A program made the translations under genes and the position numbers. A stretch of DNA of 64,000 nt, from the NCBI RefSeq assembly GCF_008386635.1, contig NZ_VUOE01000003.1, positions 310,001-374,000 of the forward strand. The letters run 5' to 3'. Below are positions 44,864 through 48,161 of the stretch, in pieces. This DNA is from Maribacter flavus (GTDB taxonomy: Bacteria > Bacteroidota > Bacteroidia > Flavobacteriales > Flavobacteriaceae). The notes under the pieces were generated by a model, which worked only from the letters and a program-made list of their open reading frames with translations, was not told the DNA's origin and did no database searches. Every line of letters begins with the position of its first letter. Position 1 is the first letter of the stretch.

Positions 44864-44917
44864 TGCCTAATGCCTAATGCCTAATGCCTAATGCCTAATG
44901 CCTAATGCCTAATGCCT
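44864..44917. repeat. 7-bp tandem repeat TGCCTAA, 7.7 copies
   Basis: Seven perfect copies (44864-44912) plus TGCCT. On the minus (coding) strand the unit is TTAGGCA. It forms the last codons and the TAG stop of trpF (44895-44897) and extends into the trpF-trpB spacer. Confidence 0.95.
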
Positions 44918-45620
44918 TTATAAATTCCTCTAATTTCTCAATATTTTTCAACCCTGGCCTGTCCTCGAATTTGCTGTTTACGTCAAGGACATGACAATAT
45001 TTTGACTCGGGTGTTTGCAAAAACTTTTTAATATCTTCCACATTTTCCGGCCCAATCCCTCCACTTAAAAAATAGGGTTTTTGGGATGGATAGTTTTTCA
45101 ATAAAGACCAGTCAAAAGTATACCCGTTTCCGCCCGGAAGTTTTCCTTTGGTATCAAATAAAAAATAATCGCAAACCTCTTCATATTCTTTTAGAACTGA
45201 AAAGTCAAACTTCTCTTTTACCGAAAAAACCTTGATACACCTGACAGGTTTTAAAAACCTGTCAGGTCTTCCGGTGTATTCTACAAGCTCCTTACAATAT
45301 TCCGGGGTCTCATTTCCATGCAATTGCACCCCTTGAAGGTCATACTTTTCAATTTGGTCCAAAACATAGGATATATCCGCATCTACAAACACCCCAATTT
45401 TTTCTATGTCCGGTGGTATAGCTTTGATTTCCCCATCAAAATATCTCGCCGATGGTTCCCAGAATATGAATCCCAGATAATCGGGTCGTAAGGTGGCAAC
45501 CTCCATAGGATTGTATTTCATACCGCAAATTTTAAGCCCCACCCCGGCCCCTCCCAAAGGGGAGGAAGTTTTGCGTGTGTTGTATTTGCTGGTATCCATA
45601 TTTTTGTGATTCTCTTTCAT
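44895..45620 (-). CDS. trpF: phosphoribosylanthranilate isomerase with two repeat-encoded insertions
   Basis: Isomerises phosphoribosylanthranilate (Amadori step). Catalytic Cys32 in LKICGMKYNPMEV, GVQLHGNE, general acid D156 in FDTKGKLPGGNGYTFDW, and LSGGIGPENV are present. At 241 residues it is about 25-35 longer than usual. The extra length is where repeats sit: codons 17-29 (KTSSPLGGAGVGL, positions 45534-45572) are a G+C-rich repeat lying just before the conserved start, and codons 118-127 (RPDRFLKPVR, 45239-45267) are a perfect palindrome. Both repeats recur in the trpG-trpD spacer. The C-terminus ALGIRH is encoded by the heptamer array. Start ATG 45620 lies 8 bp after trpC; ATG 45599 is an alternative. 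Function seems kept. Confidence 0.93.
   Translation of the reverse strand: MKENHKNMDTSKYNTRKTSSPLGGAGVGLKICGMKYNPMEVATLRPDYLGFIFWEPSARYFDGEIKAIPPDIEKIGVFVDADISYVLDQIEKYDLQGVQLHGNETPEYCKELVEYTGRPDRFLKPVRCIKVFSVKEKFDFSVLKEYEEVCDYFLFDTKGKLPGGNGYTFDWSLLKNYPSQKPYFLSGGIGPENVEDIKKFLQTPESKYCHVLDVNSKFEDRPGLKNIEKLEEFIKALGIRH
45239..45267. repeat. palindromic repeat, family B, inside trpF
   Basis: Arms ACCTGACAGGTTTT (45239-45252) and AAAACCTGTCAGGT (45254-45267) match perfectly around one base. 26 of 29 positions agree with the copy at 47545-47573. Confidence 0.93.
45534..45572. repeat. G+C-rich repeat, family A, inside the 5' part of trpF
   Basis: 39 bp running AAGCCCCACCCCGG (45534-45547) to GGGGAGGAAGTTTT (45559-45572), read in frame as 13 codons KTSSPLGGAGVGL. 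A shorter relative is at 47486-47523. Confidence 0.85.
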
Positions 45621-45628
45621 TGAAGGAT

Positions 45629-46411
45629 TTAGAGGAGGCTTTTTATAAACATTTCGGCACTCTTTCCTGGATTATCGGTATTCATAAAATTTTCACCGAT
45701 TAAAAAACCTTGGTATCCAAACTCCTTTAACGTTTTTATTGCTTCGATGGAGCTAATGCCACTTTCCGAAACCTTTACAAAGTCATCAGGTATCAGCACC
45801 GATAGTGCCTTGCTTGTTTCCAAACTAACTTCAAATGTTTTTAGATTTCTGTTGTTGACCCCCAACATGTCCAAACTGGGCATGACCGATTTCTCCAATT
45901 CCTCCTGATCATGCACTTCCAAAAGGACCTCGAGCCCTAGGGACTTGGCAAATTCTGATAGGTTCTTGATTTCTTCTCTTGTGAGAACGGTGGCAATCAA
46001 TAGAATAACATCGGCACCATAGGCCTTTGCTTCCAAGAGCTGATATTCATCGATAATAAATTCCTTCCGTAAAAGTGGAATATCCACAGACGCCCTGGCC
46101 AACAAAAGGTCCTCAATAGAACCTCCAAAATATTTTATATCCGTTAGTACGCTCATTCCGCACACACCGGCCCTTTCATAGCCTTGGGCTACTTGTCCCA
46201 CATTGGTATTCTGGTTGATTGTGGATTTTGAAGGAGAACGTCTTTTGTGTTCCGCTATAATACAGGTTTCACTGTTACGTAAAGCTTCGGCCAAAGAATT
46301 GCAGTTTCTATCAAAAAAAACCGATTTTTCAAACTGTGCTTTAGGTAGTACCGATTTTTTCAAAGCGACTTCCTTGCGTTTATCCGCCACTATTTTATCC
46401 AGAATATTCAT
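45629..46411 (-). CDS. trpC: indole-3-glycerol phosphate synthase
   Basis: Closes the indole ring from CdRP with loss of CO2. 260 residues; the active-site segment CIIAEHKRRSPSKS (51-63), LLRKEFIIDEYQLLEAKAYGADVILLIA, GVNNRNLKTFEVSLE and SESGIS are in place. It reads ATG 46411, 50 bp upstream is the heptamer array that ends trpD, and trpF starts 8 bp after its stop. Confidence 0.97.
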   Translation of the reverse strand: MNILDKIVADKRKEVALKKSVLPKAQFEKSVFFDRNCNSLAEALRNSETCIIAEHKRRSPSKSTINQNTNVGQVAQGYERAGVCGMSVLTDIKYFGGSIEDLLLARASVDIPLLRKEFIIDEYQLLEAKAYGADVILLIATVLTREEIKNLSEFAKSLGLEVLLEVHDQEELEKSVMPSLDMLGVNNRNLKTFEVSLETSKALSVLIPDDFVKVSESGISSIEAIKTLKEFGYQGFLIGENFMNTDNPGKSAEMFIKSLL

Positions 46412-46461
46412 TAATACATTTTTGATACATGGTTTAAAAATCGATTAGAATAGTATATATT

Positions 46462-46497
46462 CTAACATCTAACATCTAACATCTAACATCTAACATC
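46462..46497. repeat. 7-bp tandem repeat CTAACAT, 5 copies
   Basis: Five perfect units (46462-46496) plus one base. On the coding strand it reads ATGTTAG. The trpD stop TAG (46490-46492) and final Cys codon lie inside it. Confidence 0.95.
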
Positions 46498-47485
46498 GGC
46501 TTATTTCCTGTAATTTCTTTAATGCCGATAGTCCTTTGCCACTTTTTAGGGATTCCATGGCCAATTCAAATCCCTGTTTTGGGGATACCCCATTGACCGT
46601 ACTTATAGCTATCCCCGCATTGGCACAGACCACATTGTTTTGTGCTTCCGTTCCCTTACCGTTTAGAACGTTCATAAATATTTGTGCCGATTCCGGTATG
46701 TCCTCGCCCCCCTCAATTTCCGAAGCTTTCACTTCAGATACACCAAAGTCCGAAGGCTTTAGAATATTCTCGGAACCATTTGATATGGTCTTTGTTTCGC
46801 CGGTCAGGCTTATTTCATCATACCCGTCCAAGGCATGTAAAACCGTAAAGTTCTTGTCAGTATTCTGATATAGATAGCCGTACATTCTAGCCAATTCCAA
46901 ATTGAATACCCCCACCATTTGGTTCTTTGGAAAGGCCGGATTTACCATGGGTCCCAACATGTTGAAAAAGGTCTTTACGGCCAATTCCCTTCGAATTGGG
47001 GCCACATTTTTCATTGCCGGATGAAAGAGTGGTGCATGAAGCACACAGATTCCGGCCTCATCGATGGATTTTCGAAGGAAGTCGGGCTCGTTACTGAATT
47101 TGATGCCCAAGAATTCCATGACATTGCTGCTGCCACATTTAGAAGATACCCCATAATTTCCGTGTTTGGTCACTTTTACACCGGCCCCTGCGGTAACAAA
47201 GGAGGCCAGAGTGGAAATATTGAAGGTGTCCTTGCCATCTCCTCCGGTTCCACAAAGATCGATCGGGTTGTATTCTGATAGATCGACGGCCAAACAAAGG
47301 TCCAGCAGCGCATCACGGAATCCCTCCAACTCTTCAATAGTGACGCTTCGCATCATGTACACTGTCAGAAAGGCCGCGATCTGACTGGTGTTGTAATCGC
47401 CCTTGGCGATGTTGACCAATATTTGCTTGGCATCCTCTTTTTCAAGGATTTCGTGATTGATTAGTCTATTTAGTGTTTCTTTCAT
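46490..47485 (-). CDS. trpD: anthranilate phosphoribosyltransferase
   Basis: Transfers the phosphoribosyl group of PRPP to anthranilate. 331 residues with the PRPP loop LCGTGGDGKDTFNIST (77-92), KHGNYGVSSKCGSSNVMEFLG, and NMLGPMVNPAFPKNQMVGV. The start ATG 47485 directly abuts a G+C-rich repeat (47486-47523). The C-terminus ends in EISRC, of which the Cys and the stop are encoded by the heptamer array, so the true ancestral end may have been different. Confidence 0.96.
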   Translation of the reverse strand: MKETLNRLINHEILEKEDAKQILVNIAKGDYNTSQIAAFLTVYMMRSVTIEELEGFRDALLDLCLAVDLSEYNPIDLCGTGGDGKDTFNISTLASFVTAGAGVKVTKHGNYGVSSKCGSSNVMEFLGIKFSNEPDFLRKSIDEAGICVLHAPLFHPAMKNVAPIRRELAVKTFFNMLGPMVNPAFPKNQMVGVFNLELARMYGYLYQNTDKNFTVLHALDGYDEISLTGETKTISNGSENILKPSDFGVSEVKASEIEGGEDIPESAQIFMNVLNGKGTEAQNNVVCANAGIAISTVNGVSPKQGFELAMESLKSGKGLSALKKLQEISRC

Positions 47486-47523
47486 AAGCCCCTCCCAACC
47501 CTCCCCAAGGGGGAGGGCTTTTT
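47486..47523. repeat. G+C-rich repeat, family A, in the trpG-trpD spacer
   Basis: AAGCCCCTCCCAA...GGGGGAGGGCTTTT. It contains a hairpin CCCTCCCC (47499-47506) and GGGGAGGG (47510-47517), followed on the plus strand by a T tract. It borders the trpD ATG without any spacer, so the trpD translation start region is repeat-derived. Confidence 0.85.
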
Positions 47524-47540
47524 TTATTGTTTTATGTTGG

Positions 47541-47577
47541 TTAGACCTGTCAGGTTTTTAAAATCTGACAGGTCTAA
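47541..47577. repeat. palindromic repeat, family B, in the trpG-trpD spacer
   Basis: Arms TTAGACCTGTCAGGTTTT (47541-47558) and AAAATCTGACAGGTCTAA (47560-47577) pair with one mismatch around a single base. It lies 5 bp after the trpG stop codon on the coding strand and would form a long hairpin in the mRNA. Confidence 0.93.
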
Positions 47578-47582
47578 AAATC

Positions 47583-48161
47583 TTATTTCTTTTTCTGGCC
47601 GTTTAACCAGTTTTCTAATATCTTCTTTCCGTTTGGTGTTAAAACCGACTCTGGGTGGAACTGTACCGCCCTGATATCGTAAACCTTATGTCTTAGGGAC
47701 ATAATTTGTCCAGTTTCATCAAGGGAGGTTGCTTCCAAACATTCGGGTAATTTAGGGTTCACCACCCAAGAATGATACCTTCCTATTTCTATTTCCGTTT
47801 CAAGTCCATCGAAAATATAGTCATCAACTATAATATTTATTTTAGTAGCCACTCCATGGTAAACCTGGTCCAAATTTATAAGGGATCCCCCATAAACCTC
47901 CCCTATAGCCTGTTGACCTAGGCATACCCCAAAAATCCGTTTGGAGGGGCCATATTTTTCAATAATGGGTTTTAATAGCCCTGCTTCATCCGGGATACCC
48001 GGACCGGGTGAAAGTACTATTTCCTGATAGTTATCCACTTCCTCCAAGCTAAGTTGGTCATTTCTTTTTACGATTACTTCGCGGCCCAAATCCTCAAGAT
48101 AGTGTACAAGGTTGAAGGTAAAACTATCGTAATTGTCTATCATTAAAATCTTCCGTGCCAT
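47583..48161 (-). CDS. trpG: anthranilate synthase component II (glutamine amidotransferase)
   Basis: Releases ammonia from glutamine for TrpE. 192 residues; class I GATase triad C80 (FGVCLGQQAIGEVYGG), H169 and E171 (VQFHPESV), and the oxyanion segment LSPGPGIPDEAG. The ATG directly follows the trpE TAA (48161/48162), so translation is coupled. Not fused with trpD, unlike in enterobacteria. Confidence 0.97.
   Translation of the reverse strand: MARKILMIDNYDSFTFNLVHYLEDLGREVIVKRNDQLSLEEVDNYQEIVLSPGPGIPDEAGLLKPIIEKYGPSKRIFGVCLGQQAIGEVYGGSLINLDQVYHGVATKINIIVDDYIFDGLETEIEIGRYHSWVVNPKLPECLEATSLDETGQIMSLRHKVYDIRAVQFHPESVLTPNGKKILENWLNGQKKK

Follow-up and report, generated by a model that had tools for sequence, protein, structure and literature searches.

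Short palindromic repeats read in frame in TrpF of Maribacter flavus and candidate RAYT partners of one of them in Flavobacteriaceae

In the REPIN/RAYT systems of Pseudomonas, non-autonomous palindromes are reportedly associated with a RAYT gene. In 2013, small palindromes of the GTAG and CGTC types of repetitive extragenic palindromes (REPs) were described as in-frame insertions in proteins whose function is known [PMC3733652; this and the other sources cited are represented here by excerpts]. In those excerpts, different REPs lie near the same site of recB in two Xanthomonas species, loops and linkers are thought to be tolerant, and GTAG REPs are linked to RAYTs (REPtrons). REPs also occur inside tnpA_REP genes of TnpA_Y1 subclass 2.4 in Bacteroidetes and Cyanobacteria [PMC6006769], and Rickettsia palindromic elements (RPEs) are translated in frame in metabolic genes [PMC10969869, PMC3733652]. 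The general phenomenon of in-frame palindromes is therefore not new. In the present study, we analysed a window of 64,000 nucleotides covering the minus-strand trp operon region (contig 3) of the 4.30-Mb genome of Maribacter flavus, family Flavobacteriaceae, and found two short repeats, here called families A and B, read as protein within trpF.

We consider it quite probable that both segments of TrpF represent copies of repeats, elsewhere mostly extragenic, that came to be read as protein, that family B is a RAYT-linked REP, and that structural tolerance of the protein allowed both. Compared with the GTAG and CGTC REPs as excerpted, family B has no such tetranucleotide at its foot, resides in Flavobacteriaceae and takes part in a fusion with HemF; moreover, one loop of one enzyme takes several unrelated repeat families across genera. 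Genomes are cited below by G-codes (G000 is the genome of the window) and fetched loci by L-codes.

The family B palindrome

The trpF open reading frame (ORF; 44895..45620, minus strand; 241 residues counting the stop codon) matches Pfam PRAI at 2.6e-32 and probably starts at the ATG at 45620 or at the in-frame ATG at 45599. Within it, positions 45239-45267 form a perfect 29-bp palindrome, the core of a 33-bp unit (45237..45269, minus strand) that is read as the 11 codons RPDRFLKPVRC. The second unit of the window lies in the trpG-trpD spacer (47543..47575); its reverse complement agrees with the trpF copy at 26 of 29 core bases, and the two were also found as the arms of an inverted repeat. 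The positions that the initial annotation gave for both repeat families, and its translations KTSSPLGGAGVGL (residues 17-29) and RPDRFLKPVR (residues 118-127), proved correct.

A 27-bp core pattern gave four matches in the window, that is, the two sites on both strands, and none in 100 shuffles. Genome-wide, 16 sites were found in G000 at up to 3 mismatches, and the reversed-pattern control found 0. When 14 of these copies and 101 copies from relatives (up to 2 mismatches) were aligned, the conserved unit was AGACCTGWCAGGTTTTNAAAACCTGWCAGGTCT, 33 bp in length, with a sharp drop of conservation beyond it. The trpF unit fills 11 codons without remainder (R118-C128) and departs from the consensus at one end base. 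As read off the sequence, two of the three frames of the unit are open for suitable N, namely R-P-V/D-R-F-L/S-K-P-D/V-R-S and D-L-S/T-G-F-K/E/Q-N-L-T/S-G, and the third holds TGA. The unit ends AGACCTG...CAGGTCT, without a GTAG or CGTC tetranucleotide, and we therefore do not file it as a GTAG or CGTC REP. As to a target-site duplication of the type of miniature inverted-repeat transposable elements, no base beyond the 33 bp was strongly conserved, and no empty site was aligned.

Family B was found in 6 of 36 genus genomes (G000 counted) and in 33 of 397 family genomes, with a highest copy number of 27 at up to 1 mismatch (G258). All but one of the 16 copies in G000 lie outside long ORFs; five of these 15 overlap ORFs of 62-133 amino acids, which we took as spurious. 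Such a distribution might be expected of a selected regulatory hairpin, in DNA or RNA (a terminator, an operator or an mRNA stabiliser), of which the trpF copy would be one site. In favour of this explanation, 14 of the 15 copies have an ORF of at least 100 amino acids at a distance of 5-58 bp, and for three copies of G000 the site has the same layout of genes in another genome, G040 for two of them and G046 for one. However, the patchy spread of the palindrome through the family, its association with RAYT genes and its use as a protein linker fit a mobile element, and we regard the regulatory explanation as unlikely; secondary co-option at some sites is possible.

Among 102 distinct copies listed from loci of 34 other genomes, seven are in frame within genes judged credible, namely trpF of G008, a gene of the Sortilin/BNR type in G024, a stand-alone RAYT gene (L104) and four RAYT-HemF ORFs of about 490 amino acids. 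The copy in G024 (L064, 1501-1527) is in frame in a 775-residue Sortilin/BNR-type open frame and is read DLSGFKNLTG. An ORF of 124 amino acids across the palindrome of L167 was dropped as spurious, as an ORF of 508 amino acids overlaps it. The likeness to RPEs drawn in the initial annotation holds for the manner of insertion, in frame in trpF of G000 and G008 and in the BNR gene of G024. It need not extend to membership: RPEs are about 150 bp in length with no transposase link given in the excerpt [PMC10969869], and family B measures 33 bp and is tied to RAYTs.

TrpF in relatives, its predicted structure and family A

The family B segment has no counterpart in 22 of the 23 other complete TrpF sequences of the genus, so that it is not a conserved protein sequence shared by relatives. 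The exception is G008, which carries the opposite W variant at a slightly different point of the loop; this copy is the sole palindrome found in that 85%-complete genome. A pattern search of the 36 genus genomes found no trpF palindrome besides those of G000 and G008. In a tree of trpC, trpB and trpF minus the loop, the two genomes stand apart, but not on starred branches, and a single clade of both was rejected (p-AU 0.017, from a quick tree). Two separate arrivals of family B thus appear more likely than one; loss or transfer may also account for the pattern. The loop of G000 exceeds that of the nearest congener by just 5 residues. Without the 11 codons, the distance from the conserved Cys to IKVF is 8 residues in G000 and 6 in G008, against at least 12 in congeners; in both, part of the native loop has been replaced.

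An AlphaFold model of the G000 TrpF (52 homologues; mean pLDDT 87.7) has PRAI enzymes, e.g. 1pii, 1lbm, 1v5x and 1nsj, as its closest structural matches. In the model, residues 118-126 form the loop between helix 106-117 and strand 127-134 (pLDDT about 91). In TIM barrels, alpha-to-beta loops are on the side opposite the active site. Residues C32 and D156, which we take to be the catalytic Cys and Asp of TrpF, are invariant across all 52 sequences. Residues 10-24 have a pLDDT below 50, as in a disordered tail, and strand 1 begins at residue 28. The model thus places family B in an alpha-to-beta loop and family A in a disordered N-terminal tail. As a separate observation, trpF is part of an open frame of more than 600 codons in at least 20 listed family members (L113 and others, 608-646 codons), where it is probably fused to the next gene.

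Family A is a GC-rich hairpin repeat (45534..45572, minus strand) directly before the KICGM of strand 1. Its second copy in the window, in the trpG-trpD spacer (47486..47523, minus strand), ends with the base adjoining the start codon of trpD and is in phase with trpD, without a start codon of its own. The two copies, which differ in length, have in common AAGCCCC.CCC..CCTCCC..GGGGAGG. A longer pattern was found twice in the window against 0.06 expected. Exact matches number 2 in G000 and 10 in 8 of 289 family genomes, with 0 in the control for every genome listed, and a partial copy at 1 mismatch is at C1:1931696 of G000. Four of the ten are trpF N-termini in four genera (G000, G212, G183 and G133), one is directly before trpD of G000 and three are in no open frame of 100 amino acids. 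Another is the N-terminus of an acetylglutamate-kinase-like gene of G264 (L344, 735-1553; the name argB comes from a motif and a neighbour), where the repeat follows an ATG overlapping the stop of the upstream gene. The last is internal and in frame in the HemF of G174, where it is read DGSSPSGRSGGASWF. The claim of two repeat families is thus well borne out for B, with copies elsewhere in G000 and in relatives, and holds less firmly for A, which is rarer and less certain as a repeat.

These data bear on the possibility that the TrpF segments are ordinary, vertically inherited sequences that resemble repeats by chance. TrpF had been noted as about 25-35 residues longer than usual, and it is indeed longer than in congeners starting MKLKICGM. 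This length alone is no evidence of insertion, because similar N-terminal extensions without the repeat, e.g. MDYYYTNK...KLKVCGM, occur in some congeners (G011) and in several other genera. The tail itself is in part older than the family A repeat, which, judging by eye, would overlie its second half. Family A is at the same place of trpF in G212, G183 and G133 and, in degenerate form, in G178 and G274; it might go back to an old insertion that part of the family has inherited. For family B, inheritance is contradicted by the 22 TrpF sequences lacking it, by the tree and by codons that match copies elsewhere over 32 identical bases. We judge this explanation very unlikely for the segments taken together. 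The least likely explanation is local copying from the trpG-trpD spacer by gene conversion or duplication, which the presence of both families twice within 2.4 kb and of both exact G000 matches of family A here would favour, but the copies of A and B are unlike in sequence and also in their order and spacing, the resemblance around B stops after about 47 nt at 81%, and other genera also have family A in trpF.

Other repeat families were found in the same loop of TrpF. From 132 TrpF loci, 5 without a gene call and 2 more without the loop were set aside, which gave 125 loops from 127 genes, of widely variable length. After short or mis-delimited loops were excluded, 119 were used for repeat matching and 119, a slightly different set, for a window control. 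The repeat GTCATGCTGAACTTGTTTCAGCATCTCA was matched by loops of seven genera (G314, G387, G179, G359, G099, G118 and G297), GAGCGCAGTCGAGA-type repeats by loops of G278 and G079, family B by those of G000 and G008, and half of a B-like palindrome by that of G192 (L383). In L130, L135, L395, L397, L401, L407 and L419, GTCATGCTGAACTTGTTTCAGCATCTCA is read as RHAELVSASH or similar. The loop of G367 contains a GTCATTACGAGG-type stretch, which found a match elsewhere only in the trpF end of G183 and is thus at most a possible fourth family. In three of 15 loops with matches (L049, L428 and L368), the match was to trpF of a different genome, and these loops did not enter the repeat count; a family with CGTCATTACGAGG in L368 is hence a possible fourth only. 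Five of six matching sites inspected outside the loops are not under any open frame of at least 90 amino acids, the sixth being the trpF end of G183. By these alignments, the TrpF loop is a hot spot that holds at least three unrelated repeat families across genera. This argues for structural tolerance, rather than the target choice of one transposase, as the cause of most of the hot spot.

In the window control, 66-nt windows along trpF were compared with 1.40 Mb of fetched DNA in which trpF was masked. The loop centre matched in 12 of 119 genes, against 44 of 1940 windows at all other positions but 0 and ±1 (P 5e-5; 7e-4 minus the two family B loops). Against the inner body without the +2 window (17/1547), P was 2e-7 (6e-6 minus the same loops); with that window, 23/1666 matched. 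Depending on the choice of windows, P thus ranged from 2e-7 to 5e-5, and from 6e-6 to 7e-4 without the family B loops; these values are indicative only, as windows overlap, genomes are related, windows were chosen afterwards and the database is enriched in family B. No account of the TrpF loop as a landing site was found in the open-access PMC literature, which was touched by a loose search only.

The operon order on the minus strand is trpE-G-D-C-F-B-A, in which trpF, trpD and trpG were assigned by Pfam and the others by position and similarity. All on that strand, trpC (45629..46411; its name rests on position and on homology in relatives) has its end a short way upstream of trpF, trpD is at 46490..47485 (Glycos_transf_3, 4e-68) and trpG at 47583..48161 (GATase, 1.6e-45). 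The heptamer TGCCTAA is repeated 7.7 times at 44864..44917, an array that encodes the C-terminus of TrpF and its TAG stop, and TCTAACA is repeated 5.3 times at 46461..46497, including the stop codon of trpD. A third kind of repeat thus shapes protein ends in this operon, with the trpF and trpD stops inside arrays.

RAYT genes and their fusion with hemF

A RAYT of one clade, the clade of the fusions described below, was found in 61 of 397 family genomes and in 19 of the 33 genomes with the palindrome (at most 8 candidates scored per genome); the Fisher P of 3.9e-9 is overstated, since the genomes are related. We examined 99 RAYT loci, mostly from Flavobacteriaceae, with some from other Bacteroidota and other records. 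Inverted repeats (score at least 9) were present within 110 bp upstream in 64, within 110 bp downstream in 57 and in the gene in 10. Where repeats flank the gene on both sides, 36 of 37 pairs have a common 9-mer, against a shuffled mean of 15.7. The palindromes at RAYTs vary by lineage (CCTGTCAGG, CCTGCAAGG, CCCACAGGG). In 11 palindromes at fusion junctions, 91.5% of cells pair and 6 of 15 pairs changed on both sides (shuffled mean 2.4), a comparison that gives no probability as the linkers are related; the signal was lost when the partner was slid.

The motifs N54 H55. H57 and Y116, corresponding to HUH and the catalytic Tyr, are invariant in 11 fusions, and the RAYT matches NCBIfam NF047646 at E 3e-14 (53 bits, below the cut-off of 80). 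Proteins of PF01797 (10 of 36 genus genomes, not G000) were rejected as the transposase of family B: the 12 of their loci that were inspected are without an inverted repeat with arms of at least 12. Like a REP, family B is a dispersed, mostly extragenic short palindrome, and it flanks RAYTs of relatives, though not in G000. We conclude from these comparisons that family B is a REP-type palindrome of a flavobacterial RAYT (Y1/HUH) clade, and we propose that these RAYTs may cleave and mobilise it. Compared with Pseudomonas REPINs, family B has fewer copies and is a single long palindrome, not a pair of REPs as those are said to be.

In 16 of 397 family genomes, a single open frame of 490-553 codons covers a RAYT and HemF; both profiles match one ORF in all 16. 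Each of the 16 genomes has one HemF-family match (HemN was not searched), and 11 also have family B at up to 1 mismatch. Across all fetched loci, a set drawn by RAYT and HemF searches and not a random sample, there are 31 distinct fusions (L216-L226, L234, L242, L243, L246, L248 and some of L261-L304), and 23 loci have an unfused RAYT in the same stretch. Hosts include Hanstruepera flava, Flavivirga aquimarina, Aestuariivivens insulae, Winogradskyella litoriviva, Gelidibacter gilvus, Aequorivita viscosa and Luteirhabdus pelagi. The linker is mostly a palindrome. It is read as DLSGFxNLTG, as DLQGFENLAG or, through its other open frame, as RPARFxKPARS; degenerate linkers are few, e.g. in G374, G217 and Aequorivita. 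The Met of HemF is gone in several fusions (IKDKF, VKDKF, TKDKF, LKNKF) and kept in others (SMKDKF). The HemF of G174 mentioned above (L349) is also half of such a fusion, and one protein thus contains both kinds of repeat.

The ratio dN/dS of nonsynonymous to synonymous changes in the RAYT is 0.11-0.19 (9 of 10 pairs computable; dS above 1.5 in three), a sign that the RAYT half is under purifying selection. Between W. litoriviva and W. psychrotolerans, HemF is 97% and the RAYT 54% identical, which suggests that RAYTs have been exchanged at the HemF site. On a HemF tree, the fused state has to change at least 18 times, although starred branches force only 4 of these changes; with 10 of 80 inner branches starred, support for the tree is weak, and both single and multiple fusion fit. 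An AlphaFold model of the fusion was poor (mean pLDDT 67; 11 sequences), with low confidence at linker residues 174-190. In contrast to the excerpted cases of subclass 2.4, the palindrome follows the RAYT domain and links it with HemF. The excerpt of that work mentions that a few unusually long proteins, including gene fusions, were set aside, and contains no mention of coproporphyrinogen or hemF [PMC6006769]. We found no account of a RAYT-HemF fusion in the open-access PMC literature.

Proposed course of events and significance

Past RAYT activity would have copied the hairpin as single-stranded DNA to new sites. Since no RAYT of the clade was detected in G000, its copies are probably relics. 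A unit of 11 codons that is open in two of three frames would often keep the frame on insertion in a gene, and copies would survive where the structure of the protein tolerates them. Family B would be tolerated in an alpha-to-beta loop, where it replaces a native part away from the active site by the TIM-barrel rule, and family A in a floppy tail before strand 1. We do not expect a new catalytic function from these segments. As the initial annotation had proposed, mobile non-coding repeats thus appear as protein sequence within an intact TrpF frame, with activity predicted from the conserved residues. At hemF, a RAYT gene between two palindromes would have given rise to RAYT-palindrome-HemF, several times or by repeated exchange. 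A broader proposal, to which we give an even chance, is that a RAYT has repeatedly become one polypeptide with HemF through its own palindrome and is kept by selection on both halves, which would make the transposase hard to lose, and that relic palindromes elsewhere come to rest in loops of enzymes such as TrpF.

Several observations weigh against RAYT-driven spread and structural tolerance as the explanation. No transposition was observed. No RAYT of the clade was detected in 14 of the 33 palindrome genomes, including G000 and also G258, the richest in family B; another mobilising enzyme or a missed RAYT gene is possible in the latter. At the junctions, further pair types numbered 7 against 7.0 in shuffles, one of five measures. 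Neither insertion in TrpF is clean, and thus an exact empty site cannot be shown. Matches outside trpF are also enriched in windows adjacent to the loop (-1, 4/119; +1, 9/119; +2, 6/119) and at the ends of trpF (N side, 7/38 and 5/119; C side, 6/79 and 3/18). The short core of family A is at chance both in the window (2 found, 1.79 expected) and genome-wide at up to 3 mismatches (10 found, 11 in the reversed control), and no transposase was found for this family. The activity of the G000 TrpF is itself predicted from conserved residues alone.

Our finding shows a route by which non-coding mobile palindromes can become built into enzymes outside Rickettsia. A natural experiment is offered by the single TIM-barrel loop in which, over many species, at least three unrelated repeat families have settled. 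With the RAYT-HemF fusions, it can be tested whether fusion to a housekeeping enzyme lets a transposase persist and whether its RAYT domain is still active.

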